Origin: a virus | Length of the DNA: 35,018 nt | IMG/VR virus record: IMGVR_UViG_3300009151_000205 | Span: 1 to 35,018 of that record | Reading direction: 5' to 3' (one strand) | Part shown: piece after piece, positions 2-25,800 of the stretch | Position numbering within the stretch: position 1 is the first letter of the stretch | How the letters are laid out: each line of letters starts with the position of its first letter | Position numbers and translations under genes: made by a program | Notes under the pieces: generated by a model | Databases searched by the model: none | The model's input: the letters and a program-made list of their open reading frames with translations, nothing else | Told to the model about the DNA's origin: nothing

Positions 2-2641
2 AAGACATTATTGGGTGGATTATTTTCACACGTATCGTCAGCCGATGCAGCTAAGTGGTATGATGCTGGGAAAAGAAATATTCCAAGAATAGAGTTCTTT
101 GGGTGGTTGTATGGAACACGATTACCAGGAGGCACCCCAGCTAACGGAAACTATTATGGAAGAGGATTTATTCAGCTAACTGGTAAAGAAAACTATGTAA
201 TGGCTGGTAAGAAAACTGGATTAGATTTAGTCAATAGCCCTGACCTTATGGTAGGAACTGATGATGCGACTATGGCAAGATGCGCTAAGGTTGCAGTTGA
301 GTTCTTCAAATGGAGAATATCTGGCTGGGAACAAGCTCAACACCAACCTGGATTTATATTTAAAGCATTAGCGGCAGTCAATCCTGGAGATAAGTCAGGT
401 TCAGACCACTTCAAAAAGAAAGTTAGATATTATGAATATTTCTTAGGAGGAAAGGCAGCTGCTGCTCCCTCAAATAAGGATGCTTCTAGCACCACTATTA
501 ACAAATCTGCAGCTGATATAGCTGCTGCTTCTGCTAATAAAAGAGATGCTTATATGGAAGATAGGTCCGGAAACTTTGATAAAGATGGATTCACCGACCC
601 TGAAGGAAAGTATCCCCTTAGAGATTATATGAACGAGCCAGATACTAACAGACTTGCTAGAGGCATAATAAAAGAAACTTGTATAGATTTCAAAGATGCG
701 TCTAGGAAAACCAATATTCCGATTGCTAATACCTCAGGCACTTATGATCAACCCTTATCGTCATACAATACTGTATATCCATATAATAAAGTATTTGAAT
801 CTGAAGGTGGTCATGTATTAGAATTTGATGACAGCCCGAATGGCGAACGAATTAATCTTTATCATCGTATGGGTACTTTTATTGAAATAGACCCAAACGG
901 CTCTCAGATTAATCATATTGTTGGGGACGGATTCTATATTACAGAAAAGAATGGTAATGTTTTAATCAACGGAACTTGTAACATAACAGTTAATGGTCCA
1001 ATGAACGTATTGTGTCAAGGTGATGCTAATATTGAAGTTGCTGGTCAAGTAGATGCTGTATTTCATAATAATGTTAATATGGGTGTTGCTTTAGACTTAA
1101 ACGTTGCCGTTGGTGGAGACTACAATATCCTAGTTGAGGGTAACTATAATGTAGAAGTAGGAAAAACTTCTAATACTAGAGCTATAGGCACGATGTCTAT
1201 TGAATCTACCGATGCTTTAAAATTAAAGACTGGTTCAAATATGAGTTTAGAGGGAGGCGATACTGCTTCAACTGCTGAAACTCTTATGAAAATGTCAAGT
1301 AGTATTAAATATGAAACCTCTGCAGATTTCCAAATCAAAGCAAAAACTTTTACATTAGATGTTGCTGAAACGACTGTTATTAGAAGTGGGTCTTTAACGG
1401 CAGAGACAACAACAGGCGATTTAAATCTAAATTCTTGTATGAATACAAATTCTTTATCGTTACTTAACTTTAATGTTACGGGGCTGACTGTTCAGCTTGA
1501 TCCATTAACACCAGTGGCAATAAAGCCGACAACACCTTTGACTTTATTAGGAAACCCTCAAGCACCTGTAGATTTTGCGGGAAATGTTATAGAAGGTAGA
1601 GCACAAGAAAATGTGTTGGTTGATACTACATTAAATCCAGCAGGTGAATATAACCCCAATACTTTATCTGAAAGCGTACTATCATCAGTATTAGGTGGAA
1701 TACCATTAGTTGGAAATGCACTAGCAGCATTTGGTGGAACTGCTCCTAACATTTATGACCCAAAATATGCAAATACTCCTATTGAAACAAAAACTTCTTT
1801 ATCTGCCGCAGGCGTTACAACATCTAACAGGCTGGTAGTTCCACCAGTAGATTCTTCTCACAGCCAAGGCAGCTTAAACTTAGTTCCTCCTGCAAGAACT
1901 GCGAGCGGTGAGTTTAAATATGAGGATGAGGATGATTGGGGTAGTCCAGCAGGTCAAAAGTCTGCTGATGCATTATATACTACCAGTGATTATAAAAATA
2001 ACGGTATAAATAATCCAACAGAACAAGATTCTGCCACTATATCAGGTGGTATGGGGCTTGGGACTAAATTATCTACCACAAAACAAGCAGAAATTGAGGC
2101 TCAATCAGATTTCCCATTAAGCTATAAACTATCAGACCATTTCACACTAGGTATGTTGACATTGGGCGGTAAGTATAGAGTTACAGATGTGAGCTTACCC
2201 TCTGCTGGTTCTTCTTCTAGGTCATTATATACTAAACAAAATCTTGTTGCTAACTTAGCTGCATTATCTATAAATATATTAGAGCCTATATATAAAGAAA
2301 TAGGACCTTGCCAAGGTAGTGGACAAGGGGCAACGTGGATGATTACTTCTGGTCTGAGAACCGAAGGCGCAGTTGCTTCTTCTAAAGCGTCGTCTGACCA
2401 TAATAAAGGCAGAGCAGTAGATATTCAATTACTGACTGATAATACTATTGATAATCTATTTGAATTAGTTAGTAAGTTAGAAAAGATTTTACCTTACAAT
2501 AAATTGTTAATGGAATATCGTAGTAATGGAGCTTCTAGATGGATTCATTGTTCCTATTCAACGGAAGGTAATGTTGGTCAAACGTATACTTATGTTGATG
2601 ATAAAAAATATTCTTCTGGTTTGAAAAAGTTATTCGCATAG
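2..2641 (+). CDS. 5: gp5-type baseplate central spike, GH19-like glycosidase + beta-helix + M15-like peptidase (5' partial)
   Basis: This is the cell-puncturing hub protein of the baseplate, expected to form the trimeric spike at the tail-tube tip and digest peptidoglycan on entry. The frame is open to the left edge, so the true start and the first GH19 part (and any OB-fold) lie outside the window; the TTG at 11 is not a credible start. Numbering from that TTG, residues 1-147 look like a GH19 chitinase/endolysin, with the signature YYGRGFIQLTG at 48-58. Residues about 245-470 match the gp5 C-terminal spike: PYNKVFESEGGHVLEFDD leads into short alternating V/I-x-G/N beta-helix repeats. Residues about 700-876 resemble an M15 peptidase: S-x-H-x-x-G-x-A-x-D at 795-804 (H797, D804), E835 in LLMEY and WIH at 844-846. 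The PAAR gene follows six bases later. Family calls are from recalled motifs; the spike assignment is firm and the exact enzyme specificities are inferred. Confidence 0.88.
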   Translation, partial: KTLLGGLFSHVSSADAAKWYDAGKRNIPRIEFFGWLYGTRLPGGTPANGNYYGRGFIQLTGKENYVMAGKKTGLDLVNSPDLMVGTDDATMARCAKVAVEFFKWRISGWEQAQHQPGFIFKALAAVNPGDKSGSDHFKKKVRYYEYFLGGKAAAAPSNKDASSTTINKSAADIAAASANKRDAYMEDRSGNFDKDGFTDPEGKYPLRDYMNEPDTNRLARGIIKETCIDFKDASRKTNIPIANTSGTYDQPLSSYNTVYPYNKVFESEGGHVLEFDDSPNGERINLYHRMGTFIEIDPNGSQINHIVGDGFYITEKNGNVLINGTCNITVNGPMNVLCQGDANIEVAGQVDAVFHNNVNMGVALDLNVAVGGDYNILVEGNYNVEVGKTSNTRAIGTMSIESTDALKLKTGSNMSLEGGDTASTAETLMKMSSSIKYETSADFQIKAKTFTLDVAETTVIRSGSLTAETTTGDLNLNSCMNTNSLSLLNFNVTGLTVQLDPLTPVAIKPTTPLTLLGNPQAPVDFAGNVIEGRAQENVLVDTTLNPAGEYNPNTLSESVLSSVLGGIPLVGNALAAFGGTAPNIYDPKYANTPIETKTSLSAAGVTTSNRLVVPPVDSSHSQGSLNLVPPARTASGEFKYEDEDDWGSPAGQKSADALYTTSDYKNNGINNPTEQDSATISGGMGLGTKLSTTKQAEIEAQSDFPLSYKLSDHFTLGMLTLGGKYRVTDVSLPSAGSSSRSLYTKQNLVANLAALSINILEPIYKEIGPCQGSGQGATWMITSGLRTEGAVASSKASSDHNKGRAVDIQLLTDNTIDNLFELVSKLEKILPYNKLLMEYRSNGASRWIHCSYSTEGNVGQTYTYVDDKKYSSGLKKLFA

Positions 2642-3028: not shown

Positions 3029-4485
3029 TGAGTTCTAAAAAAATAAGTGAATTACCGTTAGCGCAACCCTTGACAGGTTCTGAAACTGTTCTTGGGATCC
3101 AGAACGGAGTATCTGTGCAGGTGTACGCTTCTGCATTAGGTGGTGGTGGTGGCGGCTCTGGTGGTGGTGGTGGCGGCTCTGGTGGTGGGAATTTATCCAA
3201 TGTTGTAGTGAAAAATTCAAACCCAATTTTTATATTCACATCAAATATTAACGGTGAAGTATTTTCTTATTCGCATTCAGGGACTACTATAACTGTAGAG
3301 GAAAATGATGTTCCCCTTGTATATGATGGAATAGGAGTGACTGCAGGAACATATAAAGTCGATACTATCCCTATCAATATTACTGTCGGGGCATTATCAT
3401 TAGACGGCAATACATTAAAAGTAGCTAATCATTTAGGGGTTTCTGCTACTATAGGTAATTCTTCTATTATATACAACATTTCTGGGACTCGTTATGTTGG
3501 AGGAGCATTTGCTACAAATACTTCCCAAACATTCACTAAGGTACAATCTGTTATTACTTCTTTGCCTGTATTTGATGGCATTAATACAGATTCATCAGTT
3601 ATTGTAAAACAATCTACAGATGTGGATACAAATGGCGTATTTTCGCCTTTAGTCATACAAGGGTTTCAAACAATAAGTTCTAATGTATCAAAATATGGTT
3701 GGATAACAGTAACTACAAATTTGGGGGTGGCTTTAACAGGCGCTACAGCAATTGATACTTCAGTAACACCTTATACTTGTCAGTTAGCAGAGGATTCTAA
3801 AGTTTCTTCCGTAACTATTAAAATGTATAATCAAGCAACTATTGCTGGTGCGACACTACTGGATACGGAAGTAAGGCAGGTTGTGTATGCTAAAATTGCC
3901 GACCCTTTGTATGTTGTAGTTACTGGATCTCAGGTATTTAAGTTTACAACAGGAACTTCTATACCAACTACGACCAATACGACATTAACCGCTACACTGT
4001 CAGGCGCACTAAATACATATAAGTGGCAATACTGGAATGGTACTACTTGGCTTGATTTGAGCGGAGTAAATAACTCATCGACCTACGATTTGGCGTATAA
4101 TAATTCTGCTTGGTCAACATCAAGTTTACTTATTAGGTGTTTATCTGGTACTCATTATGATGAAACGACTATAATCAAACTTTATGACGGATCATCTCCA
4201 TATAATGTTGAAATATATTCATCTAACGGACAAACTTTTAGGCGTGGAAACCATACACATACTGTATTAGCTGCAAAAGTTTTCCAAGGCGCAAATGAAG
4301 TGACCGACTCTTTTGATGCTTCACAATTTCGTTGGAGAAGAGTTTCTATCATCGATGAAGATCCAACAACAACTGATGCTGCTTGGAATAATTTATATAT
4401 TACTGGATATAAACAAGTAGAAGTATCTGTAGATGACTTCGAATCTAACGCTACTTTCTTTTGCGACATTTACTCACTTAATTAG
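3028..4485 (+). CDS. Tail-fibre-like protein with Gly6-Ser linker and Ig-like domains
   Basis: A 485-aa virion-surface protein, probably a tail or baseplate fibre. Residues 5-37 (KISELP...PLTGSETVLGIQNG) are an anchor motif seen at the N terminus of many phage tail fibres. Residues 38-54 are a flexible linker, two Gly6-Ser units plus Gly3. Residues about 67-172 form a beta-rich domain (ending in a SQTFTK motif) that recurs at residues 560-682 of the 1359-aa protein encoded at 6014. The C-terminal third looks Ig-like (SSNGQTFRRG, FRWRR, late FFCD cysteine strand), the type found in phage tip and fibre proteins. It overlaps the PAAR stop by one base, so it is probably co-expressed with the spike. 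No chaperone or peptidase domain is visible. The specific receptor or partner is unknown. Confidence 0.7.
   Translation: MSSKKISELPLAQPLTGSETVLGIQNGVSVQVYASALGGGGGGSGGGGGGSGGGNLSNVVVKNSNPIFIFTSNINGEVFSYSHSGTTITVEENDVPLVYDGIGVTAGTYKVDTIPINITVGALSLDGNTLKVANHLGVSATIGNSSIIYNISGTRYVGGAFATNTSQTFTKVQSVITSLPVFDGINTDSSVIVKQSTDVDTNGVFSPLVIQGFQTISSNVSKYGWITVTTNLGVALTGATAIDTSVTPYTCQLAEDSKVSSVTIKMYNQATIAGATLLDTEVRQVVYAKIADPLYVVVTGSQVFKFTTGTSIPTTTNTTLTATLSGALNTYKWQYWNGTTWLDLSGVNNSSTYDLAYNNSAWSTSSLLIRCLSGTHYDETTIIKLYDGSSPYNVEIYSSNGQTFRRGNHTHTVLAAKVFQGANEVTDSFDASQFRWRRVSIIDEDPTTTDAAWNNLYITGYKQVEVSVDDFESNATFFCDIYSLN
3139..3180 (+). repeat. Tandem 21-bp direct repeat coding for the Gly6-Ser linker
   Basis: Two identical adjacent 21-base units (3139-3159 and 3160-3180), each GGT x4, GGC x2, TCT, followed by a partial third unit (GGTGGTGGG, 3181-3189). 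They encode residues 38-54 of the fibre-like protein. Perfect identity, including codon choice, points to recent slippage or unequal recombination, so the linker length may vary between relatives. Confidence 0.9.
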
Positions 4486-4494
4486 GATAAAAAC

Positions 4495-5988
4495 ATGGCT
4501 GCTACTTTAGTTTCAACAGGTCAGTTTACAATAGTCGATAACAACGATGCAAGAACCATTACAGCTGTATTATCAACAAGTGGAGGTACACAGCAAGTAT
4601 TTACAAAAGATGAATCAACTCTTACCTTTACCCCAAGCTTTGTAACCTCAAATTTAACTTTATCACCTAAACTTTATATTAGTGGATTATCTGAGTCTCA
4701 AGTATGGGGCGCATTAACAAACAAACAGTTCTCTTTGACTCAAGGGGGCACAGCTTTAACAACTGCAAGCACCTCTACGGCTTTTGTTGATAATAGCTAC
4801 GTAGCCGTCTCTGCTCCGTTTACCGTGACGCATAGTGCAAATGGAACAGCGACTTTGTCCACCTTAGTTGTAAAAGCTAACCTATTGGACACAACTGCCT
4901 CTTTAGTTTTATTCTTTGAAGCGGATTATATTGACCCAGTTACTAATCTAACCACGCACATTATTACTCAAGTAACTTTAAGTACAGTGAAAACAGGGAC
5001 TAACGCTGTTTTCATAACGCTGAGGGGTCAAACAAATATTGAGCAAGCTACAGGCGCAACAAAAAATAATATCTGCATAGCGGCTGATTTAATTCGATCA
5101 AGCGGCATCGACACTTCAGGTCTTACTTATAGATGGTATGACCAAACTGGAGCTCAGATCAATACAGCCTACCCCAGCGTATCAACACTGTATGGGTTTA
5201 AAGGTACTATAAACCCTGCCGTACCTACTGCTGCGGCTGCGGGTGCAGACCTAAACACTAATTTACCCGTTGGAACTGCGGGGATTAGTTGGGCATTAGG
5301 AAATACCATGACATTATCAGAAGCGGCTGTTAATCAAATAGGTATCTATCGGGTAGATATTACCGATGCAGATGCCAAAACCTATTCACAGTATTTTACT
5401 ATTTATGACATCTCTGATGCTTATAAGGTAACTATCAACTCATCTACAGGCGACAAGCTCCAAAATGGAATAGGTCAAACAGTGTTAACTCCTTCGGTTT
5501 ATTATGGCGCTGTCTTAGTTTCACCATTAACAAGTTGGGCATTCACTTGGCGTTTTTACGACAGAAATGGTAAGAGAGGCGCTTTTATTGATACCTCTAA
5601 GATAAGCATAGCAGGTGGTGCGAACATTACAGCCAATACAACAACAGCCAGTGCGACTTTTACTTATAGCGGTACTTCGTACGCCTTTGTAGCTGGTGAT
5701 GTTATTAAAGTTGTGAATGCGGCAGGCTTGGCATCATTCTTTGAAGTTGCAAGTAGTATAACGAATGTAGTAACAATGAGAACGCCAAGCACTAACACAT
5801 GGCTGTCGATTACTGACTTCCCAGCCCCTACTGCGACAACTGACTTTGTTGGTGGAAAGTTATACGGTTGCTTTAGTACTGTAGCTGGGGCAGGTACTAG
5901 AGTTACAGCGGCAGGTGCATCTATTACTCTAACAGGCGATGAAATAGATGCTAAAAGTACAGTTGCTTGTGATGCCACTAGACCTTAA
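4495..5988 (+). CDS. Tail-fibre/tip-type structural protein with Ig-like domains
   Basis: A 497-aa protein in the tail-fibre cluster. Its first 20 residues (STGQFTIVDNNDA) match the start of the next gene product (SSGTFTIVDVNDG), so the two share an N-terminal attachment module. The body is Thr/Ser/Ala-rich beta structure. Residues about 310-370 (SSTGDKLQNG, FTWRFYDRNG) resemble the Ig-like domain at the C terminus of the 485-aa neighbour. There is no signal peptide or membrane segment and no enzyme motif. It begins nine bases after the previous stop, with AGGA ahead of ATG. DNA here is visibly richer in G+C than the genes after 10.09 kb. Probable role: virion-surface decoration or receptor contact; the exact function is unknown. 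Confidence 0.62.
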   Translation: MAATLVSTGQFTIVDNNDARTITAVLSTSGGTQQVFTKDESTLTFTPSFVTSNLTLSPKLYISGLSESQVWGALTNKQFSLTQGGTALTTASTSTAFVDNSYVAVSAPFTVTHSANGTATLSTLVVKANLLDTTASLVLFFEADYIDPVTNLTTHIITQVTLSTVKTGTNAVFITLRGQTNIEQATGATKNNICIAADLIRSSGIDTSGLTYRWYDQTGAQINTAYPSVSTLYGFKGTINPAVPTAAAAGADLNTNLPVGTAGISWALGNTMTLSEAAVNQIGIYRVDITDADAKTYSQYFTIYDISDAYKVTINSSTGDKLQNGIGQTVLTPSVYYGAVLVSPLTSWAFTWRFYDRNGKRGAFIDTSKISIAGGANITANTTTASATFTYSGTSYAFVAGDVIKVVNAAGLASFFEVASSITNVVTMRTPSTNTWLSITDFPAPTATTDFVGGKLYGCFSTVAGAGTRVTAAGASITLTGDEIDAKSTVACDATRP

Positions 5989-6013: not shown

Positions 6014-9000
6014 ATGGCATCAATAGTAAGCTCAGGCACATTCACCATCGTTGATGTTAATGATGGAACAAGTTCGTCGTTGGTTCAACTTTTTTATTCT
6101 GGCGGAGCTGCTCCTGCGTTACCGACTTCTGTTGTTTATACTGTATCAACTGGGCTTGTTACTAATATAGGTACTTGGTCACAAACTAGACCAAGCACAG
6201 GATCAGTCCCTGTATGGATGACGACGTATTTGTTTACTATTCCAACAGGTGTCACTACCGTAACCACTAACCAAAATTGGACAACAGCAATAATTGTAGC
6301 ACAAAATGGTCTTGATTCACTTAATACCATTCAAGCTATGATGTCTAATGAAAATCAAAGTATTGTTGCAGATAAAGATGGTGTTACTGGTACTTTTAGT
6401 GATGTTCATACTATGACCGTCTATAATGGTACGACAGATGATTCAGCTAATTGGACTTATGCTAAAACGAATATAGATCCAAACGTTACTTCTGCATTAT
6501 CAGGAACTCTCGGTAATATACTCACTGTTACTGCCTTTGCTACAGCAAGCGATACAGGTAGTGTTGAGGTAACAGCAACACGAACCGCAGCTGCTCAGGT
6601 TAATATATTATCGGGTAGTGAAACCTTTGACACTACGCAAGGTTGGTCCAATGCTGTTACTTTAGGTAATACTGGGGTTCTTGTAGAAACATCGCCCATA
6701 ATTGCACCAAATGGAACATTAACAGCAAAAAGGATAACTGCCAATGCTGGTTTAGTTTTATTATATAGAAAAGGGTACACATTTCCTGCTAGTCAGTATT
6801 CAGTTAGCACCTATGTTTATGTACCCACTCAAGCTGGTATTAATAATTGGATTGTTGGTAATGATTTTGCCGATGCTGAGACTGCTGGTGGAACTGTTTA
6901 TACTGTGTTTGATAAGTGGGTTAGGTTTGAAAATACAATAACGACTACCTTATCAAGAGGTTTCCTTGATTGGAATATAAACATGAATGGTGCTGCATTA
7001 CCTGCCGGCACAGTGTTCCATGTCTGGGGTGCAATGTGCAAAACAGGGGCTGCTTCAGGTATGTATATTCCTTATATTGCTCCAATATCTAAAAAACTTA
7101 ATCTAACTAAAGCCAAAGCTGGCGCAACTGGTCCTAGAGGAACTTCTTACAATTCTTTAGATATATATTTCACGAGCACTTCTTCTACAGTTCCAGGGAC
7201 TCCTACAGGAGGCTCATATAACTTTAGTACCAATACTTTTAATACTGCTGCGATTGCTAGTGTGAATTTAGCACTTACAGCAGGTTGGTCAGAAACTAGA
7301 CCAGCTTCAAATCTAACTGGTATCTACTCATCTACTTTTCTGTTTTCTACTGATACAATCAGCAATAATGTTCCTGCAGGAACATGGTCTGCACCCGTCC
7401 TTGATCAAAAGGATAATGTTTTGTATGAGGCAACTGTGTATTATCAAGTGTCCTCGCCAACTGCAGCCGCACCCTCACCATCTCCTACAGGAGGCTCATA
7501 TAACTTTAGTACCAAGGTACTGACTCCTCCAACTTCTTGGCTAGTAGATAAACCTGCAACCACAACATCACCAACATACCGTTGCCAGTATACGTTTATG
7601 AATAATAATATAGACTCAGGTAGCTCAACAACTCAAACTGCAGCAACATGGGGTACTGTGCGTATGGAAGTTGTTAATGGTATTGCAGGGGCAAATGCAA
7701 TTACTGCCGTACTATCAAATGGTAGTTCAAGTGTGATGGAAGCTACCAACGCAACTTTTAGATATGATGGAACTGCTACGACTCTTGAAGTTTTGGAAGG
7801 AGCAACAGCTTTAACATATTCTGGATTTGCAACAGCAAGTGTTGCAGCTGGTCAATGGACAGTATCTACTATAGCAGCAACAGGAATTACGGCTAATGCT
7901 ACCGCAGCTACAGGCACTGGAACAACAAAGGCTAGTTATGGCGTTGCTTCAGTTATAACTGCTGATGCTGCATCTATTTTATATACAATAAATGGAAAAA
8001 CTGCAGGAGGAACTGCATTTAGCACAACAGCTACTCAACGATTTACTAAACAGAAAGATGGATTATTAGCACCCTCAGTTTCGATTAGCACGGATCGTGC
8101 ATTAATTTTTACATCAACAAGCGGCACAATAGATACAAAAAACACAACATCTTCAAGGAATTTGGATATAGTATTAACAGCTAATACTGCAAATATGTCA
8201 GGAACGAAATCATACGTTTGGACATTTACTGGATTTTCTACTGCCCCTGCAACCCCAGCTTCTACATCTTCTACAGCAACTATACTAGCTAGTGATTTTG
8301 GTGCATCAAAAAGTGCAACAGTTAGTTGTTCGGTTACATATAATTCTATAGCATACCCCTCTTATCCAATAACTATTAATAGAGTTGAAAAACAGAACGC
8401 ATCAACTCAAGGATCATCAGATCCAACAGCATTGTTGCCAGCTAATCCTGTTGCGGGAGATAGTTATTTTAATACCACAACAAATCTACTGTGGGTTTAT
8501 AATAACTCAGTGTGGTCTAAATGTTTGCCTGAATTAACATCTGCTAATATTGCAACCTTTATGCCTGGAGCAGCTATTGGCGAATTGCAGGTAGCTAATG
8601 GTGCTATTACCAACCTAAAGATTGGCAACGTTATCCAAAGCACTGATTTTACGTGGACTCCTTCCACTTCTCTAGGTGATGGTAATTGTGTGGGTTGGAA
8701 AATAGATAAGACAGATGGTGCTTATTTAACTAAATTGCAAATTAGAACAGCTACAGGTGATCTGGTTATGGCTGCTGGCGGAGGCATTGAGTATACTACA
8801 GGTATTAAAGACAAACCCACTAGCCTTGCAGGTATAAACGCTACCGAAGGAAGTAAACTAGGAGGTATAGCTAATGGTGCTACCAAAAACCTAGTCTACA
8901 ACCAAGCTACTGTTCCAACATCACCCAACGAAGGGGATGTTTGGTATGTTTCGGGTGCTTTATCAGGTTATGTTACTGGCACTGTTTACATCTATAAAAG

Positions 9001-10093
9001 CTCAGCTTGGGTTCCGACAGCAGATTCCACCAAGAGTCAGTTGTCGGGTTCGGGGGTCAATATACTTGACCCAAGATACTGTACGTTTGAGGAAGCAGCT
9101 TTGCCTCCTTTTTCACCTCACGCAAGTGGAACGCTAAGTCAAGATGCGACTGCTAAATATTTTGGCACTAAGTCATTAAAAGTAGTGACAACAGGGACTG
9201 GTGGTTGGTGGGGCGTTACAGGTTACACAACCAATATACAACCTAATAAGAAATGGATTATTTCTGGATACGTTTATAGTAGCACGGTTATTGCTGCTCC
9301 AGTTTGGGGATCAGCGGGTGTCCATTTAGGAATTCAGACTGCCTCTATTTATTATGGCACTAGTGGTTATGATGGAAATACATTAACAATTCCTGCAAAC
9401 ACTTGGACAAGAATTTACGGTATTTTAGATTTAACCGCAGACTCAAATACAACTTGCTTTTTTAGACTGGACAGTCATGCCTCAGGCACGACAGTTTGGT
9501 TTGATGGAATAATGCTTGAAGCTCAAATAGGCGACAAGACAACACCTTCAATCTATCAAGAACCACCCAACTTCTTAAATACTTATATCGGAGCTTTGGA
9601 CGCAACTAAGAATACTATCTACAGAGCAACCTCAGCCCCTTCTGGGGGTACTTATACTCAAGGTGACTTATGGTTTGACACTGATTCCAGTCCTGCTACA
9701 TTCTATCAGTGGGACGCTACACTTGTTACACCCGCTTGGTCAGTCGTCTCTAATGCAGTTACCAACACCAATCAAGTGGTCGATGGGGCGGGTCTGGGTA
9801 CAAAGGCTGTATGGGCTAATGTCACTGATAATAATTCTACCAAACCTGCTGATAATGCTACTGTAGGTGCAACAATAGGTGTGAATCTAGGCGGACAAAT
9901 TACCCTCGCCAATTCCAGCACCTTTATTGGTGCAGGTGCTATCGAAGCAGTTCAAATAAGTAGTCTTGCTCTTGTAGGTAATTTTAGTGTAAAATCTACT
10001 GTAGTAGGGGCTAGAACTGAAATGGATGCTAATGGTATGAAAGTGATTGATGCAAATGGAATTATTCGGGTTCAGATAGGTTTATTAGTATGA
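6014..10093 (+). CDS. Large mosaic tail-fibre protein with gpJ-like sections and carbohydrate-binding-like domains
   Basis: A 1359-aa host-recognition candidate, the largest protein of the fibre cluster. Reading left to right: shared start FTIVDVNDG; an about 80-residue W/P/Y module (22-97) that returns at 378-464 and 469-553; a jelly-roll-like domain (about 197-352); a short collagen-like GATGPRG (370-376); a beta domain (560-682) shared with the 485-aa protein; an Ig-like domain (about 684-790); two short G-D-x-Y/W 'wrapper' motifs (815-834, 973-1000); a section like siphovirus tip protein J (840-960, including IGNVIQST and KPTSLAGINATEGSKLGGI); a second jelly-roll-like domain (1016-1180, NILDPRYCTFEE to WFDGIMLEAQIGD); and a gpJ-like C terminus (FSVKST, ARTEMDANGMKVIDANG). 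AAGGA at 6003-6007 serves ATG 6014. Its stop overlaps the next ATG (ATGA). Carbohydrate binding is inferred from fold-like features only. Confidence 0.7.
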   Translation: MASIVSSGTFTIVDVNDGTSSSLVQLFYSGGAAPALPTSVVYTVSTGLVTNIGTWSQTRPSTGSVPVWMTTYLFTIPTGVTTVTTNQNWTTAIIVAQNGLDSLNTIQAMMSNENQSIVADKDGVTGTFSDVHTMTVYNGTTDDSANWTYAKTNIDPNVTSALSGTLGNILTVTAFATASDTGSVEVTATRTAAAQVNILSGSETFDTTQGWSNAVTLGNTGVLVETSPIIAPNGTLTAKRITANAGLVLLYRKGYTFPASQYSVSTYVYVPTQAGINNWIVGNDFADAETAGGTVYTVFDKWVRFENTITTTLSRGFLDWNINMNGAALPAGTVFHVWGAMCKTGAASGMYIPYIAPISKKLNLTKAKAGATGPRGTSYNSLDIYFTSTSSTVPGTPTGGSYNFSTNTFNTAAIASVNLALTAGWSETRPASNLTGIYSSTFLFSTDTISNNVPAGTWSAPVLDQKDNVLYEATVYYQVSSPTAAAPSPSPTGGSYNFSTKVLTPPTSWLVDKPATTTSPTYRCQYTFMNNNIDSGSSTTQTAATWGTVRMEVVNGIAGANAITAVLSNGSSSVMEATNATFRYDGTATTLEVLEGATALTYSGFATASVAAGQWTVSTIAATGITANATAATGTGTTKASYGVASVITADAASILYTINGKTAGGTAFSTTATQRFTKQKDGLLAPSVSISTDRALIFTSTSGTIDTKNTTSSRNLDIVLTANTANMSGTKSYVWTFTGFSTAPATPASTSSTATILASDFGASKSATVSCSVTYNSIAYPSYPITINRVEKQNASTQGSSDPTALLPANPVAGDSYFNTTTNLLWVYNNSVWSKCLPELTSANIATFMPGAAIGELQVANGAITNLKIGNVIQSTDFTWTPSTSLGDGNCVGWKIDKTDGAYLTKLQIRTATGDLVMAAGGGIEYTTGIKDKPTSLAGINATEGSKLGGIANGATKNLVYNQATVPTSPNEGDVWYVSGALSGYVTGTVYIYKSSAWVPTADSTKSQLSGSGVNILDPRYCTFEEAALPPFSPHASGTLSQDATAKYFGTKSLKVVTTGTGGWWGVTGYTTNIQPNKKWIISGYVYSSTVIAAPVWGSAGVHLGIQTASIYYGTSGYDGNTLTIPANTWTRIYGILDLTADSNTTCFFRLDSHASGTTVWFDGIMLEAQIGDKTTPSIYQEPPNFLNTYIGALDATKNTIYRATSAPSGGTYTQGDLWFDTDSSPATFYQWDATLVTPAWSVVSNAVTNTNQVVDGAGLGTKAVWANVTDNNSTKPADNATVGATIGVNLGGQITLANSSTFIGAGAIEAVQISSLALVGNFSVKSTVVGARTEMDANGMKVIDANGIIRVQIGLLV
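7200..7233 (+). repeat. 34-base exact direct repeat, copy 1
   Basis: Identical to 7482-7515; both copies encode PTGGSYNFST at the same place in successive copies of the W/P/Y module. A diverged relative at about 11139-11165 in the 501-aa gene encodes PTGGSYTF. Confidence 0.9.
7482..7515 (+). repeat. 34-base exact direct repeat, copy 2
   Basis: Second copy of the repeat at 7200-7233, 282 bases downstream, matching the period of the protein module. Sequence around the repeat has diverged, so this stretch is either strongly constrained or recently homogenised by recombination. Confidence 0.9.
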
Positions 10094-14954: not shown

Positions 14955-15347
14955 ATGGCAAAAAATACTAGAACATTTTCTGATTTGGATTTGAATTTTA
15001 CCCCAAATCCAAATACAGGAGATATTAATATTAGATACGATTCTGATGCCATTAAAGCGTCAGTAAAGAATTTGGTTATGACCCAAAATTATGAAAGACA
15101 TTTTCATTCTGAGATTGGGTCACCTATCAATAGCCTATTGTTCGATTTGGCAACCCCTCTCCTAACGCTCACATTAAGACAAGTTATTTCAGATCTAATT
15201 AACAACTTTGAACCCAGAGTAAATCTCAAACAGGTAGATGTTAATGTTTCTTCTGATAATAACTCAGTGTATGTTTCAATATATTTTACCATATTAAACA
15301 CTCAAGCACCTATAACACTTGATCTAATATTAGAAAGGACTCGCTAA
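14955..15347 (+). CDS. 25: Baseplate wedge subunit gp25
   Basis: A 130-aa protein matching T4 gp25 in size (132 aa in T4) and sequence character. The conserved start FSDLDLNFTPNPNTGDINIRY is followed by the family's central block, with DAIKASVKNLVMT, ERHFHSEIGSPINSLLFD and a helical LTLTLRQVISDLI stretch. gp25 belongs to the sheath-polymerisation-initiating wedge proteins shared with type VI secretion systems (TssE family) and binds gp6 at the inner baseplate. It sits directly downstream of a late promoter and its stop shares a base with the gp6 start (TAATG), matching the conserved 25-6 order. Confidence 0.95.
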   Translation: MAKNTRTFSDLDLNFTPNPNTGDINIRYDSDAIKASVKNLVMTQNYERHFHSEIGSPINSLLFDLATPLLTLTLRQVISDLINNFEPRVNLKQVDVNVSSDNNSVYVSIYFTILNTQAPITLDLILERTR

Positions 15348-17170
15348 TGGCATCTAAGAAAATTAATTATACTGCATTAGATTTTGATGAACAGAAAACA
15401 AGCCTTCAGACGTTCCTTCAAGGGCAAACCATATTCTCAGATTATGATTTCGAAGGCTCAGGGTTATCTGTATTGTTAGATGTTTTAACTTACAATACTC
15501 ATTATAATGCAATCTATAATAACTTATCAATCAATGAAATGTTCCTTGATTCGGCTAGGAAAAGAAACAGTGTTGTTTCTATAGCAAAGGAATTGGGATA
15601 CACTCCTAATTCAGCTATTTGTGCAACAGCAACAGTTGATATAACTTTCAACTCCGTAACAGCTTCTTTATTTACCTTGCCTGCAAATACTCCGTTCAAT
15701 ACAATCGTAAATGGTGTAAACTATACTTTTTATAATGCATCAGCGTTGGCATCAGTTTCACCAGAAGTATCGCATACGTTTTCTAATGTAGTAATAACTG
15801 AAAAATCTAATCAGCTTTCGTTTAAATATACGGCAGCTTCAGGTGTTTCATATATTATTCCTAATCAATATGCAGATTTATCTACTTTATCTGTTACGAT
15901 TCAAGACAATATTAGCTCCTCTAACTTAACTACATTTACTCTTGCAGATAATATTGTTAATATTACAAACGCATCTACTGTATATTGGATTAAAGAAATT
16001 GATAATGGTTTATATGAATTAACTTTTGGGAATGGGATAATAGGGCTTGCGTTAGTTCCTGGTAATATAGTTTCTTTAAATTATTGTATATCAAGTTTAG
16101 GTGCTCCAAATGGCGCAAGAGTGTTTTCATATAACGGATCTTTACCGCAAGGCGTAACTACTTCAATCAGAACTACCTCAAAAGCAACAAATGGCTCAGG
16201 TTCAGAAGATATAGAATCTATTAGATTTAATGCACCAAGAGCTCATTCAGCCCAAAATAGGGGTGTGACGACAAGTGATTATAAGTCAATATTAATGTCA
16301 AACTTTCCTGATGCTCATTCAGTTTCAGTATGGGGTGGGGAAGATAATATACCTCCTGTTTATGGTAAGGTCTTTATATCAATCAAACCCAAATCTACAG
16401 ATATTTTAACGACGGCTCAAAAAAATTATATATTAAATACTCTATTGCCGTCTAAAAACGTTCTTACCGTATTTCCTGTTATCGTTGACCCAGAACACAT
16501 TAAAATAATGTTGACGACTACTGTTTATTTCAATCCTCTAAACACTATTAGAACACCAACCGACATACAAAATATGGTCCTTGGCACTATATTGAATTAT
16601 AATTCAACAGACCTTCAAGTATTTGACGGGGTGTTTAGGTATTCGCATGTAAGTAAATTGATTGACAGTTCAGAAGATTCGATAATCAATAATATTACAA
16701 CAGTTACTTTTAAGAGAGCAATAGCTCCAAAGTATAATATAATTGCTCAGTATTTTGTTAATCTAATAAATCCAATTTACAGCTCAGGCGTTGCAAATGA
16801 TAGTGTTTTGAGTTCAGGGTTTTATACGCCTGATAATAACTTTATCAATTATGTGGTTGATGATGGCATAGGCAATATACAATTATTTCACGTCAATGAA
16901 AATAATTTTAGAGTTTATACTAACCAAACATTAGGAACCGTAGATTATAACAAAGGCACAATATCGTTCAAAAACTTGAACATAACTTCTATAGTTGGTA
17001 ATGCATTTTATCTCTATATTAAACCTAGTTCAAATGATATCATATCTGCTTTAACGCAAATACTAGAAATTTCACAAGAAGATTTAAAGGTTAATGTTGT
17101 ATCAGATACATCATCTTCAGGAGATTTAAGGGGTGGTCAAAATTATACTTTTACTACAAGTAGATCATAA
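15347..17170 (+). CDS. 6: Baseplate wedge subunit gp6
   Basis: A 607-aa protein, slightly shorter than T4 gp6 (660 aa). Residues about 9-60 carry the family signature (TALDFDEQKTSLQTFLQGQ, DYDFEGSGLSVLLDVLTYNT), and the middle has the baseplate-J-like region (FNAPRAHSAQNRGVTTSDYKSI, then SVWGGEDNIPPVYGKVFISI). gp6 forms the continuous ring that joins baseplate wedges and rearranges on contraction. The gene is overlapped by gp25 upstream and its TAA shares a base with the next ATG, so 25-6-7-like are probably translated as one coupled block. Confidence 0.95.
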   Translation: MASKKINYTALDFDEQKTSLQTFLQGQTIFSDYDFEGSGLSVLLDVLTYNTHYNAIYNNLSINEMFLDSARKRNSVVSIAKELGYTPNSAICATATVDITFNSVTASLFTLPANTPFNTIVNGVNYTFYNASALASVSPEVSHTFSNVVITEKSNQLSFKYTAASGVSYIIPNQYADLSTLSVTIQDNISSSNLTTFTLADNIVNITNASTVYWIKEIDNGLYELTFGNGIIGLALVPGNIVSLNYCISSLGAPNGARVFSYNGSLPQGVTTSIRTTSKATNGSGSEDIESIRFNAPRAHSAQNRGVTTSDYKSILMSNFPDAHSVSVWGGEDNIPPVYGKVFISIKPKSTDILTTAQKNYILNTLLPSKNVLTVFPVIVDPEHIKIMLTTTVYFNPLNTIRTPTDIQNMVLGTILNYNSTDLQVFDGVFRYSHVSKLIDSSEDSIINNITTVTFKRAIAPKYNIIAQYFVNLINPIYSSGVANDSVLSSGFYTPDNNFINYVVDDGIGNIQLFHVNENNFRVYTNQTLGTVDYNKGTISFKNLNITSIVGNAFYLYIKPSSNDIISALTQILEISQEDLKVNVVSDTSSSGDLRGGQNYTFTTSRS

Positions 17171-18111
17171 TGACTATAAAAAAGCCTAAATTACCCACAT
17201 TAGTAGCAAGTCAACTTCCTGAATTTGTTCGGGAAGATTACCAAACATTTGTCACGTTTGTTAAAGCCTATTACGAGTATTTAGAGAATAACATTCTTGT
17301 TGATCTATATAAAGTTAGTGATGTTGATAGCACATTAGATTCTTTCTTACAATACTTTAAGAGTGAAGTTGCTTTAAACTTTCCAGCAACCCTGATAGAC
17401 GACAGGTTTCTTCTTCCTAAATTGAAAGAGTTGTATATATCAAAAGGCACTATAGCATCTTATAACTTATTGTTTAGAATATTATACAACAAAGAAATCA
17501 CCATCAAGCAACCTTCATCACAAATGCTTAGGGTTTCAGATGGTAAGTGGGTTCAAAATATCTCTATATTTGTGGATCTTAAAGTAGGTTCTTTTGATTC
17601 AGTAATAGGGAAAACAGCTAATATTGTATCTTCAGATAGAAACAATAGAAAGAATATTGTTGTGGTGGTAGATAACTACAAAACTACAGAGACTGCAGGA
17701 ATTTATGAAGTCGTTTTAATAAATAATTTTTTAGGGACATTTGAACAAGGCGATTTATTTAATTATGGCTCAAATGTATCTGGAGTTATAACAAATATTG
17801 TAAAACAGCAAGGTTATTATTCAAATAGTGATGGGTTTTTGAATAGTGATATGTATATACAGGACAGTAAATACTATCAAGCATTCTCTTATGTCATACA
17901 GATTGATGAGTTATTTGAATCTTACAAATCAGCAGTGAAAAATTTGATTCACCCTGCAGGAACAGAATTATTCGGTGAATACCATATAAATACTATTTTA
18001 GAGTTATCTGAAGACACCGACATCAATTTTGCAGAATTCTTATTGGGATTAACGACCGATGCTGGTCAATTAACTAACGAAAACGGTGATATACTTATTT
18101 TTGTGTTATAA
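17170..18111 (+). CDS. 7: Short gp7-like baseplate wedge protein
   Basis: A 313-aa protein in the place of gene 7, between gp6 and gp8. T4 gp7 is over 1000 aa, but this one appears to keep only the part resembling its C-terminal domain: an aromatic helix (PEFVREDYQTFVTFVKAYYEYLE, residues 17-39), a KGTIASYNLLFRILYNKEI block (92-110), a beta region (130-210) and a helix leading to NLIHPAGTELFGE (258-270). The assignment rests on gene order and remembered similarity to the T4 gp7 C-terminal region. A small GTFEQGD...SGVITNI motif (189-210) also appears in other proteins of this window. The end of the gene holds a late promoter for gp8. Confidence 0.75.
   Translation: MTIKKPKLPTLVASQLPEFVREDYQTFVTFVKAYYEYLENNILVDLYKVSDVDSTLDSFLQYFKSEVALNFPATLIDDRFLLPKLKELYISKGTIASYNLLFRILYNKEITIKQPSSQMLRVSDGKWVQNISIFVDLKVGSFDSVIGKTANIVSSDRNNRKNIVVVVDNYKTTETAGIYEVVLINNFLGTFEQGDLFNYGSNVSGVITNIVKQQGYYSNSDGFLNSDMYIQDSKYYQAFSYVIQIDELFESYKSAVKNLIHPAGTELFGEYHINTILELSEDTDINFAEFLLGLTTDAGQLTNENGDILIFVL
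17985..17999 (+). promoter_or_regulatory. T4-type late promoter inside the end of the gp7-like gene, for gp8
   Basis: TATAAATACTATTTT, a full match to the extended T4 late consensus, 166 bases before the gp8 ATG and within the final 45 codons of the gp7-like frame. The octamer sits over codons for I-N-T, so the protein constrains it little. It would let gp8 be made separately from the 25-6-7 block. Confidence 0.65.
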
Positions 18112-19891: not shown

Positions 19892-22800
19892 ATGCTTGAT
19901 TTTAACACAGAACCATATTTTAATGACTTTTCTGAAGATAACAAATTTTATTCTATTTTGTTTAGACCTTCTGTTGCAGTTCAAGCTAGAGAATTAAATC
20001 AGTTTCAAACCATTCTTCAAAATCAAATTTCTAGACATGGTTCTGCTATATTTAAAAATGGTGCTGTTGTTATTCCTGGCGAATTTGATATTAAACCTTC
20101 AATAGATTATTTAACTCTATCTAATATTGGAACTTCAATTACAGTTTCTAATTTGATAGGAACAACGATCATAAATGGTGTGGGTGTTACTGCTAAGGTT
20201 GTGCACGCAGTTGATGCTACTTTAGCAGACCCTGCCACATTATATCTTAGTTATATTAGTTCATCAACTTCAGGTGCTGAGACTAAAATATTTTCAAATC
20301 ACGATACGTTGACTTCAACAGATAGTTTATATGTTGGTATGATTTCTTCAGACGTTGCTTCTTCTGGGTTTGGTTCTATATCAACAATTAGGCGTGGTGT
20401 TTACTATGTTAATGGATATTTTGTATTATGCGACACTCAAACAGTCGTTTTAGATAAGTATTCAACAAATTCATCATATAAAGTTGGGTTTATTGTATCC
20501 GATTCAGTCAAAACTTCTGACGATATTGGTTATGATTCTTTATTAGATAATTCCCAAGGAAGTTCTAATTATTCAGCTCCTGGTGCTAACAGATATTATA
20601 TAGATTTAACATTAACTGCTTTGCCAATATTTACTGATAGTCCATCATTCATTGAATTAGGTCGCATAAAAGAAGAAATAATAGTTTCCACTACAGCAAT
20701 TACAGGCTATTCACAGTTAGAAAAAACTTTTGCAAGAAGAACCTATAATGAGTCTGGAGATTATACAGTTACGCCATTCCAAACGGATATAAGAGAACAT
20801 CGTAATAACGATAGAAAATCTTGGGTATCCTCAAACACCTACTTGACTGGCGACATAGTTTCTAATATAGTTTTAGGAACAACCTATTTCTATTCTGCGA
20901 TACACGATATGATTGCGGGAGCCGCAGTTCCTGTTCACACTTCAGGAATTGTAAACTATTGGGAACAAACAGCAAGTCCTTTATATAATAGAGGAATATA
21001 TTCACCTGATGTTGTTGCTCCAGATACAGTTGGAGATGCCTCAAAATTTGTAGTGGGGTTTGAACCTGGAAAGGCATACGTTCAAGGTTATGAAATAGAA
21101 AAGATTTCAACTTCTTATATTTCTATTGATAAACCTAGAGACCAAATTAACGATGTTGTAACAGATCCTTTAACGTCTATACCAACAACAGTAGGTAGTT
21201 TTGTTGAAGTGACTAAGGTATACAAGCTCCCTCCAATATTAGATGGTGGCGAAGTAGGTCTGTACGATTCGCTCGTTTCAACTAATGGAACGTTAGCAGG
21301 CAATAAAATAGGAACTTGCAATGTTAGTGGTATCCAATCAGAAAGTGGTACTGGTGAAAATACTTATTGTAAAATGTTTATCTACAATATTAAGTTAAAT
21401 GAAGGGAAAGATTTTGCCTTAAACGTAAAATCATTCTATAGTGCAAATTTTACTGCTAATGTCTCGCAAGACACATATTCCTTGTCTTTAGGAACCGTAT
21501 CGTATGCACAAGGTGCAATAAACAGCTTAACAGGCATTGGAACTACGTGGTATTCAGACCCCGATCCGTCTAAAAGATTGATCGCAAATGATTGGGTACA
21601 TTTTGGTGCGTATTCAGCACAAGTAGTATCTACCCCAACATCAGACGCGTCACTTACTATTTCTGCCGTAAACACCACAGGTTCAAGTGCAGGGACTAAT
21701 TTAGTTAAAATACAGACAAAAGTAAATGAACCAAATGGTGCTGTGTTAGTTTTTCCTTTACCACACTATGCAACAAAAACTATAGATAGCCAATCTTATC
21801 ATATTATTCAACAAGCCACTGTAGGTGGTATTACCACCACAGGTTCACCACCCAATAACACATTATCTATTTCTGTTTCTGCTGGAATTTTGTTGCCTGA
21901 TGCGTCTAACTATTATGTTCAAAATGGTTCTGGGATTTCTATTGGCGCAAATAATTTCACAGTAGTAGCAACAGGAAGTACAGCTAAATTAATTTTTGAT
22001 ACTGCTGTAACAGGAACTTATTCGGTATTTTGTACTGTAAATAAAACAAGCGTATCGGCTAGGAAAATCAAAACTTTAACTTCTGCATCACAAACCTATA
22101 CTCAAGCTAATGCAGCAGCAACTAAATTGACATTGAGTGATGCAGATTGTTATAAAATCGTTAATATAATGATGGGAGATACCGATATAACATCTTGGTA
22201 TGAATTCAATAATGGACAAAATGACTATTTTTATGATTATGGAAGTATATCATTAATTCCATCTTATCCTACACCATCATCAGCAATAACCGTAAATTAT
22301 CAATATTTCGCACACACCGCTGGTGATTTTTGTGATTTAGGGTCTTATACTAATATAGATTATTCTTTAATCCCTTTTTATAATGGCATTAATTTAAGAA
22401 ATGCTATAGATTTTAGACCAAACAAACAATCCTTTAATATGTATCTGCCTAAACGTGGATACAATATGAATGCAAATATTTCATATTATCTACCAAGACA
22501 AGATAAATTAGCTTTAGATATTTCAGGTAATTTCTTTAATATAGAGGGTTCATCTTCATTAAACCCAGGAATTCCAACCGACTCGTCTAACGGAATGACT
22601 TTAAATGTATTAAACATAGCACCTTATGTTTTTAATGTATTATCTGATGTAGAAGTATCAAAAGTTGAAAATAAAAGATACACTATGAGGGATATTGGTA
22701 AACTAGAAACTCGTATTAATAACCTTGAATACTATACTTCATTATCACTTTTAGAGCAAGAAACTTCTTCATTGAGCATATTAGATGATCAGGGGAATGA

Positions 22801-25800
22801 AAGATTTAAAAATGGGTTCATTGTTGATAATTTTACAGGACACAATATTGGAGATACTGCATCACCAGATTATTTGTGTTCTATTGATATGGTAGCTAAT
22901 GAGTTAAGACCCTTTGCCTCAATGGACAATATTAACCTAATAGTTGATACTAATAGTTCTAGCAATTATAAAATGTATGGTGACCTAGTTACTTTGCCAT
23001 TAGACCCTAGTACTCCTCACGTAGTTTTAGCTCAAAACACTTATGCGTCAAGGACTGAAAATATAAATCCGTTTGCAGTATTTACATTCTTAGGAAACGT
23101 AAATATAAACCCCTCTTCAGATGATTGGTTTGAGGTTAATAGACTTCCAGATATAATTACTAATGTTGAAGGTAATTATACAATAATGACTCAGATGGCA
23201 GCATCTTCTGGCGTATTAGGAACTGTTTGGAATTCTTGGCAAACTCAGTGGACTGGCACTCCATTAGTCACTAACACATATTCTGGTGCTTATGCTACAC
23301 AAGCAAAGAATTTAGGGCTAACAGGTCAAAAGTTTAGTGTATCTGCAGGGCTTAATACATCTATACATGGTTGGGATCTTAAGGCAGGTTCTTATTCTTT
23401 AGAGACTACGACCGCAACTCAAATAGGTCAATCAAGGTCAGGAATCAATACTGTCGCTGTTGCTAAAATTGATACGCAGCTTGTTGATGATAAAGTATTA
23501 TCAATTGCAGTTATTCCATATATCCGTTCAAGATATGTACTAATACAAGCAAAAGGATTAAAGCCTAACACAATATTTTATCCTTATTTTGATAACTTAA
23601 ATATTTCTTCACACTGTAGTGTTGCTAATGTTATAACCTATACTCCTGTATCTGGAGTATTCGATTCGCAAACTAATTCTGGAATTAATGCAGCTTTAGA
23701 TTCTGTAAGAACCATCTCAGGCGACACTCAAGTTTGTTTAAATATTGGTGACGTTATTGTTGGTGGTGTTTCTGGAAATAAAGCAGTTGTTGTCGGTAAA
23801 GAAAGAATTTTAAGTAGTGCCGGAGTTGCAACTTATATATTATACACTATCAACAAATCTGAATTGTCTAGTGGGGCGTTCATTGTCGGAGAAACTTTAA
23901 CAGGTTCTATTAGTAATGCAGTTGGTACTTTTGTATCGACTTCTGTTCCTACAGATTTTAAGACTGGTTCTACTGGCGACTTAAATATGTTATTTAAGAT
24001 CCCTAATACTGATGCAATGAGGTTTAGAACTGGCACTAGAGAACTTAAATTGATAGACAACTCTAATGCTAATGGCGCGTTTGAATCTAAGGGAGTTTCT
24101 AGTTATACTGCTTCTGGAACTATTCAAACTAAACAATCCAATATTTCTGCTACTAGGAATGTTGAGTTTGTGCAATCTCAGGTATCAGATAATCAAACTA
24201 TCACAAACACTACCAGCAAGGTAGTATCAGGAACGGCTTGGTATGATCCATTAGCGCAAACCTTTTTAGTTGATTGTTCAGGAGGAGCATTTTTATCTAA
24301 AATCGATTTGTTCTTTGCTTCTAAAGATAGCAATATCCCAGTATCTATTGAGATTAGAGAAGTTGTTAATGGGTTTCCAACAGCAGTTATTTTGCCATTC
24401 AGTAAAGTAGTTGTTAAATCAGAAGATGTTAATTTGTCTAGTAATTTAGTCAAAACTTGGGACGATGTAAGCTATCCAAAATACGATACTCCAACCACCA
24501 TCACATTCCCAAGCCCAGTTTATGTAAAAGATAAAACTGAATATGCGATAGTTCTAGTGAGCGATTCCGATAGCTATAAAGTTTGGATTTCACAAATGGG
24601 TGATCTAATTCCTGGTGGCGAAGGTAGTATTTCTAAGCAACCTTATTTAGGAGTTTTACTTAAGTCTCAGAATGCTTCTACGTGGACTGCTTCACAAGAC
24701 CAAGACTTAAAATTTACTTTATATAGAGCAAATTTTAATAAAAATGTTATTGGTAATTTGGTTTTAACTAATGATAACCTACCAAAAGTTACTTTGGTGA
24801 ATGACCCTATTCAAACATTATTAGGTTCTTCTACTGTGAGGGTTTGGCACAATAATCATGGATTTAATAGCAACGATCAAGTTACTTTAACAGGATCTTC
24901 ATCAACTGATGCTACTATAACCTCAGCTGTTTTGAATAATACTTTTACTGTATTGAACCCTAAACTAGATAGCTATACTATTGTGGTTTCTGCAGTAGCA
25001 ACAAAAACAGGGTATATTGGAGGTTCTAGTCTTAAAGCAACAAGAAGTGTTGTATACGAAACTCTACAACCTAATATAACTGAATTAAATTTTTCTGAAA
25101 CTAATATTAACTATTCTATAGTAACCACAGAATCGTCAAATAGCACTTCTAACGCTGAACTATCTTGCATAACTAACGATAATAATTATTTTTATACGCC
25201 TAAAGTAGTTAAGAGTGGAAGAAATGCAAATTTGCAAATGAAAGCTAAGTTGAAAACATCTAATTCTGCTTTATCGCCTATTATTGATACGCATAGTTGT
25301 TCTGCAGTGGCAGTAAGAAATAAGATAGATTCTCCAACAGAAGCAAATACTAATATTCCGTTGATAGATAACGTCACTATTTTATCTAGCGTTTCTTGTA
25401 CTTTATCTGGTAATACTTTAACAACTGGCGTTGATGCTAATAGAATCATACTAACTAGATGTATCGTAGGCTCTTATATAACTTTTACTGGGGCTTCAAC
25501 TAATTCTGCATCTAATGGTATTAAATTTTTAATAACTGGCGTGGATTATAGTTCTTCAGCCTCTAAAGGAACTTTGACATTATCTAATGCTAATTTTACT
25601 GCAGAAACTGTTAATTTAACCGTATCATACTATAATTCATTCTTTGATGAAATTACGCCTATGAGTAGTTCATCAACAAGTAAATACGTATCAAAAGCAA
25701 TAACTTTATCAAACCCATCTAATAGCCTTAGAGTTAGGTACGCAGTTTGTTGCCCAACAGAAGCAGATGTGTTTGTGTATTATAAAATTGGAACTAACCC

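Follow-up and report, generated by a model that had tools for sequence, protein, structure and literature searches.

In phage T4, the hub/spike protein gp5 bears a single glycan-cutting domain, and the order along its chain is OB fold, linker motif (111–135), lysozyme and spike (from ~361). We take the lysozyme domain to lie at about 174–342. Proteins that combine two wall-cutting domains are described from other systems. Five two-domain virion lysins were counted in a 2017 review, each of them from a phage of Gram-positive bacteria (PMC5380687); among Gram-positive phages, HydH5, phiMR11 gp61 and CwlP join glycan-cutting and amide- or peptide-cutting domains in one virion protein (PMC5380687), but they are siphophage tail proteins and not T4-type needles. 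On the bacterial side, T6SS TseP is a dual wall-cutting effector (amidase and lysozyme) with a different peptide-side enzyme from the one described here, while the evolved VgrG proteins carry an enzyme fused after the VgrG spike, as bacterial secretion effectors rather than phage spikes. The spike type described here is known and two-enzyme hubs are present in the named phages compared below; the GH19–M15 pairing was found in no paper, and a literature search of open-licence papers gave no published description of an M15 domain on a gp5 spike.

Organisation of the spike gene

The window analysed here is the entire 35,018-bp IMG/VR virus record IMGVR_UViG_3300009151_000205. The ORF at 2–2641 (+) shows no stop between the first base and its terminal stop codon and encodes 879 residues of a T4 gp5-like central spike, which is 5′-truncated as the record begins ~70 codons inside the gene. 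A previous sequence-only reading had proposed that this spike is flanked, in one polypeptide, by a GH19-like region and a C-terminal M15-like peptidase, and this arrangement was confirmed. The following features were identified:

2..451 (+): GH19 domain (predicted endolysin-type muramidase), 5′-truncated, from Pfam PF00182, a profile match and AF2/Foldseek of relatives; ~70 N-terminal residues including both catalytic Glu lie beyond the record start
584..664 (+): gp5 linker motif (DGFTDPEGKYPLRDYMNEPDTNRLARG), aligning to T4 gp5 111–135 and to PF06714 positions 79–108
743..1510 (+): gp5-type triple-stranded beta-helix spike (needle), from PHROG 430, PDB 9f4a and T4 gp5
1511..2110 (+): linker of ~200 residues, without family match, the least constrained part of the gene
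2111..2638 (+): M15/LAS-type domain (predicted Zn peptidase) with R786, H800, D807, E838 and H849, from PHROG 894, hhalign, AF2/Foldseek and invariant residues
2648..3028 (+): PAAR spike-tip protein gene, immediately 3′ of the spike gene (PF05488 E=4.4e-8, above cut-off; PHROG 281 E=6.6e-21)
14955..18111 (+): baseplate wedge genes of the same T4-type operon, given as context (PHROGs 261, 219 and 17744)

The structural genes of the record follow the T4-type order, with the gp5-like spike, PAAR, tail genes, baseplate wedges, neck, terminase, sheath, tube and portal. Two other ORFs were recorded along it: a 1359-aa ORF in the tail region (6014–10093), without Pfam or PHROG match, which is possibly a tail fibre, and a strongly conserved 2040-aa protein (19892–26014; 1424 bits) assigned to PHROG 358 of unknown function.

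Residues of the spike ORF are numbered here from nt 2. The motifs pointed out in the earlier reading are present as noted, whereas its residue positions are 3 too low in this numbering, having been counted from the first TTG (nt 11).

No closer copies of the window gene were found in viral_contigs by exact DNA pattern search, and 28 relatives with 52–80% identity were retrieved. Complete relatives open with MADxIExxPIPDTPP, with the GH19 domain directly after, and continue with the gp5 linker motif, the triple beta-helix spike, a long linker and the M15/LAS-type Zn-peptidase domain.

With T4 gp5 (tail-associated lysozyme, PDB 1k28/1wth) the locus shares the spike, the linker motif and a PAAR-containing baseplate operon. 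The spike of the window ORF matched PHROG 430 (E=1.2e-53), the PDB 9f4a spike (E=2.2e-19) and also T4 gp5. On the other hand, the single lysozyme of T4 lies between the linker motif and the beta-helix, whereas here the motif (residues 194–221) is followed by the spike at ~234 with nothing intervening. As GH19 stands before the linker motif, and the motif leads directly into the spike, the domain is no in-place swap for the T4 lysozyme. The M15 domain, in turn, has been added after the needle. Relative to T4, the difference thus goes beyond the extra enzyme: GH19 has its place across the linker motif, and relatives encode the OB fold separately.

The OB fold, which tethers T4 gp5 to the hub, is not N-terminal in the same chain in complete close relatives; there it is encoded immediately upstream by a separate gene of ~225–228 codons (PF06714 E=5.9e-18). 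It is fused in more distant members. The window's own upstream gene lies beyond the record start, and its separate OB gene is read from these complete close relatives. A tree built from 54 genes sets the split and fused forms apart with a single change between them, so that one event best accounts for the separate OB gene of the window's clade.

The GH19 and M15 domains

The GH19 domain proposed earlier was detected by Pfam (PF00182) in the window with E=1.5e-7, above the cut-off (31.9 vs 25.5 bits), and in 16 of 17 aligned genes. Its motif YYGRGFIQLTG occupies residues 51–61 (nt 152–184) of the ORF, and the pattern Y-x-G-R-G-x-I-Q-L-T was absent from 20,000 shuffled versions of the window protein with the same composition. 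A profile of the relatives' domain retrieved the SPN1S endolysin (4ok7; E=8.8e-13) and 33 other GH19 chains. Modelled with AF2 (pLDDT 90.5), the relatives' domain had phage GH19 endolysins as its best PDB matches in Foldseek (E about 3e-5), with T6SS TseP (PDB 8xcl) also among the fold matches.

Because the window starts ~7 residues past the second catalytic Glu, its own Glu pair cannot be read; both occur in its closest relative, which is 80% identical. A missing catalytic Glu had been named beforehand as evidence against this domain, and both residues, E56 and E64 in the numbering of L002, the complete relative nearest to the window, were present in all 69 relatives covering the site, while Q128 and T130 of the GRGxIQLT motif were found in 70/70 sequences. 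These four residues correspond to E51, E60, Q127 and T129 of PaGH19Lys, a proven muramidase in which they are active-site residues (PMC12329726). Two other active-site residues of GH19 endolysins, His50 and Asn188, showed no clear conservation in the spike GH19 domains. The assignment to the GH19 family is secure, and the domain is predicted to be a muramidase.

At the C-terminus, SDHNKGRAVD was identified at residues 798–807 (nt 2393–2422) and WIH at 847–849 (nt 2540–2548), and this part of the ORF also carries L-M-E-Y. The pattern S-x-H-x-x-G-x-A-x-D turned up 13 times among the same number of such shuffled versions (20,000). The Zn ligands H, D and H (SxHxxGxAxD ... WxH) are all present in the window; across the family, the first His, the Asp and the SGxR arginine were found in 86/86 sequences, and the Glu and second His in 85/85, with the roles of the Glu and Arg assigned by homology. 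By Pfam, which the sequence-only reading had suggested as a check, GH19 was significant but M15_3 in the window stayed below the cut-off (E=0.015; 15.8 vs 23.2 bits), and M15_3 reached E<0.01 in 3 of 17 relatives. PHROG 894 ("endolysin"), however, matched residues 744–875 with E=5.9e-11, and hhalign linked this type of M15 domain to the PAAR-linked M15 of PA5oct with E=2e-18.

As a profile search of PDB sequences gave nothing relevant for M15, the fold was compared instead. The AF2 model (pLDDT 81) had LAS-fold proteins as its leading Foldseek matches, namely Hedgehog N domains, 1lbu, ChiX and VanXY, with a best E of only 5e-3. The M15 assignment is therefore weaker than that of GH19 by single-sequence search, yet the earlier family claim is supported by the PHROG match, the complete set of metal and catalytic residues and a model led by LAS-fold matches, and the domain is predicted to act as a peptidase.

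Occurrence, related phages and selection

A scan with the M15 domain only gave 253 loci, and the best 80 of these were analysed. GH19, spike and M15 were in one ORF at 57 of the 58 environmental loci with a complete gene start, a rate that may not apply to more distant M15 spikes because the best 80 are those nearest to the window. In these 57, the OB fold was fused in front in 27, was a separate gene just upstream in 27, and was not seen in 3. At the exception (L144, 4097–6558), the OB fold, the GH19-spike and M15 are spread over three overlapping frames, which may be sequencing frameshifts or a real three-way split. Overall, 32 distinct GH19-spike-M15 and 32 distinct OB-GH19-spike-M15 proteins were collected from many samples. 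The two-enzyme spike is thus no one-off but the established layout in a clade of uncultured, environmental T4-like phages.

Among deposited genomes, gp5 of Synechococcus phage BUCT-ZZ01 (UTS51949.1) is a 939-aa protein that likewise unites OB, GH19, spike and M15, although its OB is fused, its sequence is very distant and its annotation is merely that of a baseplate hub subunit. A second, free M15 ORF (182-aa open frame) lies at 76757–77209 of this genome (ON615601.1) and is a possible donor or endolysin. The same M15 module was also found paired with an enzyme other than GH19: Caulobacter phage Cr30 has OB-Phage_lysozyme2-spike-M15, whereas Rhizobium phage RHph_I1_18 has a separate OB-Phage_lysozyme2 protein and a spike-M15, and Methylophilales phage Melnitz a separate OB-VanY protein and a spike-M15. 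The OB hub protein of Melnitz (3862–4902) carries its own VanY-like M15, so that the hub/spike complex of this phage has M15 peptidases of two kinds. In Pseudomonas jumbo phages such as PA5oct and the vB_PpuM phages, in Vibrio phage 1.244 and in Milchi, the module is borne by the PAAR cap and not by the spike, and mass-spectrometry evidence is marked in the record of the PA5oct PAAR-M15 protein. Pelagibacter phages have stand-alone M15 relatives annotated as peptidase M15 or endolysin, which, together with the free copy in BUCT-ZZ01, suggests that the spike M15 was recruited from lysis enzymes.

The portal protein of the window was nearest to those of marine cyanophages (53.6%), which does not by itself establish a cyanobacterial host. 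Neither psbA (PF00124), searched in 16 relatives' records, nor CpeT, searched in 11, was found. In Synechococcus phage S-RIM8 (NC_020486.1), a marine cyanophage close to the window by portal, nothing matching this gp5 spike family was found across the whole genome.

Median dN/dS over close pairs was 0.053 for the spike, 0.070 for M15, 0.094 for GH19 and 0.147 for the linker, estimates which are not independent as the pairs share sequences. The patterns used for fetching loci included the GRG and EY motifs, so the conservation of these letters is biased upwards; the patterns of the domain scans contained neither the two GH19 Glu nor the H/D/H ligands of M15. Both enzyme domains are under purifying selection. 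Degeneration of one of them had been raised beforehand as an argument against a two-enzyme spike, and with invariant residues and low dN/dS neither looks degenerate in the relatives.

Mode of action and implications

It is highly probable that the gene encodes the spike of a T4-like contractile phage with two peptidoglycan hydrolases on one trimeric needle, GH19 near its base and M15 on a linker beyond its tip. The M15 domain follows the needle in the chain and is elsewhere fused to the PAAR tip protein, and its location would therefore be at the tip in both arrangements. Since the chain break is on the OB side of GH19, this domain would be expected to travel with the needle. Upon sheath contraction, the PAAR-capped needle would be driven through the outer membrane. 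The wall would be met first by the three tip-borne M15 domains, which would cleave stem or cross-link peptides, and glycan strands would then be cut by the three GH19 domains that follow, so that the hole is widened for the tube. More tentatively, we propose a two-stage drilling needle in this T4-like clade, in which the peptidase tips lead and the muramidase collars follow. The chain break would have shifted across the lytic domain, from its spike side (the maturation cleavage of T4) to its hub side (the separate OB gene), so that both enzymes enter the periplasm with the needle.

Alternatively, GH19 could be the sole working lysin, with the C-terminal M15-fold as a Hedgehog-like, non-catalytic zinc domain binding wall peptides or the PAAR tip. 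Hedgehog domains have the LAS fold and the zinc site in common with this domain and are not known as peptidases; their N domains top the Foldseek list, and the Pfam M15 match is under the cut-off. We nevertheless consider this unlikely, as the highest TM-score among the listed matches (0.46) belongs to the Zn DD-peptidase 1lbu, the Arg, H, D, E and H are all invariant, and such a role is improbable for the stand-alone relatives in Pelagibacter phages, which are annotated as M15 peptidase or endolysin.

Similarly improbable is a separation in time, with one enzyme acting at entry and its partner, freed by proteolysis of the linker, in late lysis or after infection. The weaker constraint on the ~200-residue linker, the endolysin annotation of the Pelagibacter phage relatives and the fact that T4 gp5 is itself cleaved in maturation would agree with it. 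However, the architecture is fixed at nearly all the loci with a complete gene start among the best 80 of 253, other phages carry M15 on PAAR tip proteins, and BUCT-ZZ01 keeps a separate M15 gene beside its spike copy, so that the latter is not its only source of this enzyme. A fusion created by an assembly artefact joining two genes would fit the truncated window gene and the three overlapping frames of L144, yet the same chain is present in the 32 + 32 distinct proteins from many samples and in the deposited BUCT-ZZ01 genome. It was rejected as a practically negligible possibility, many independent contigs carrying the fusion.

The Gram-positive-only view of two-domain virion lysins in the 2017 review (PMC5380687) can now be set beside a predicted enzyme pair that is fixed on a T4-type needle. 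Dozens of distinct genes from environmental phages, and also a deposited cyanophage (BUCT-ZZ01) with a growable host, pair a glycan-cutting with a predicted peptide-cutting domain. Natural, predicted bifunctional wall-degrading proteins are thereby made available for tests, and which enzyme acts first, and whether it is hub-retained or needle-borne, becomes directly testable. The gp5 needle appears in this light as a modular platform, much like evolved VgrG.
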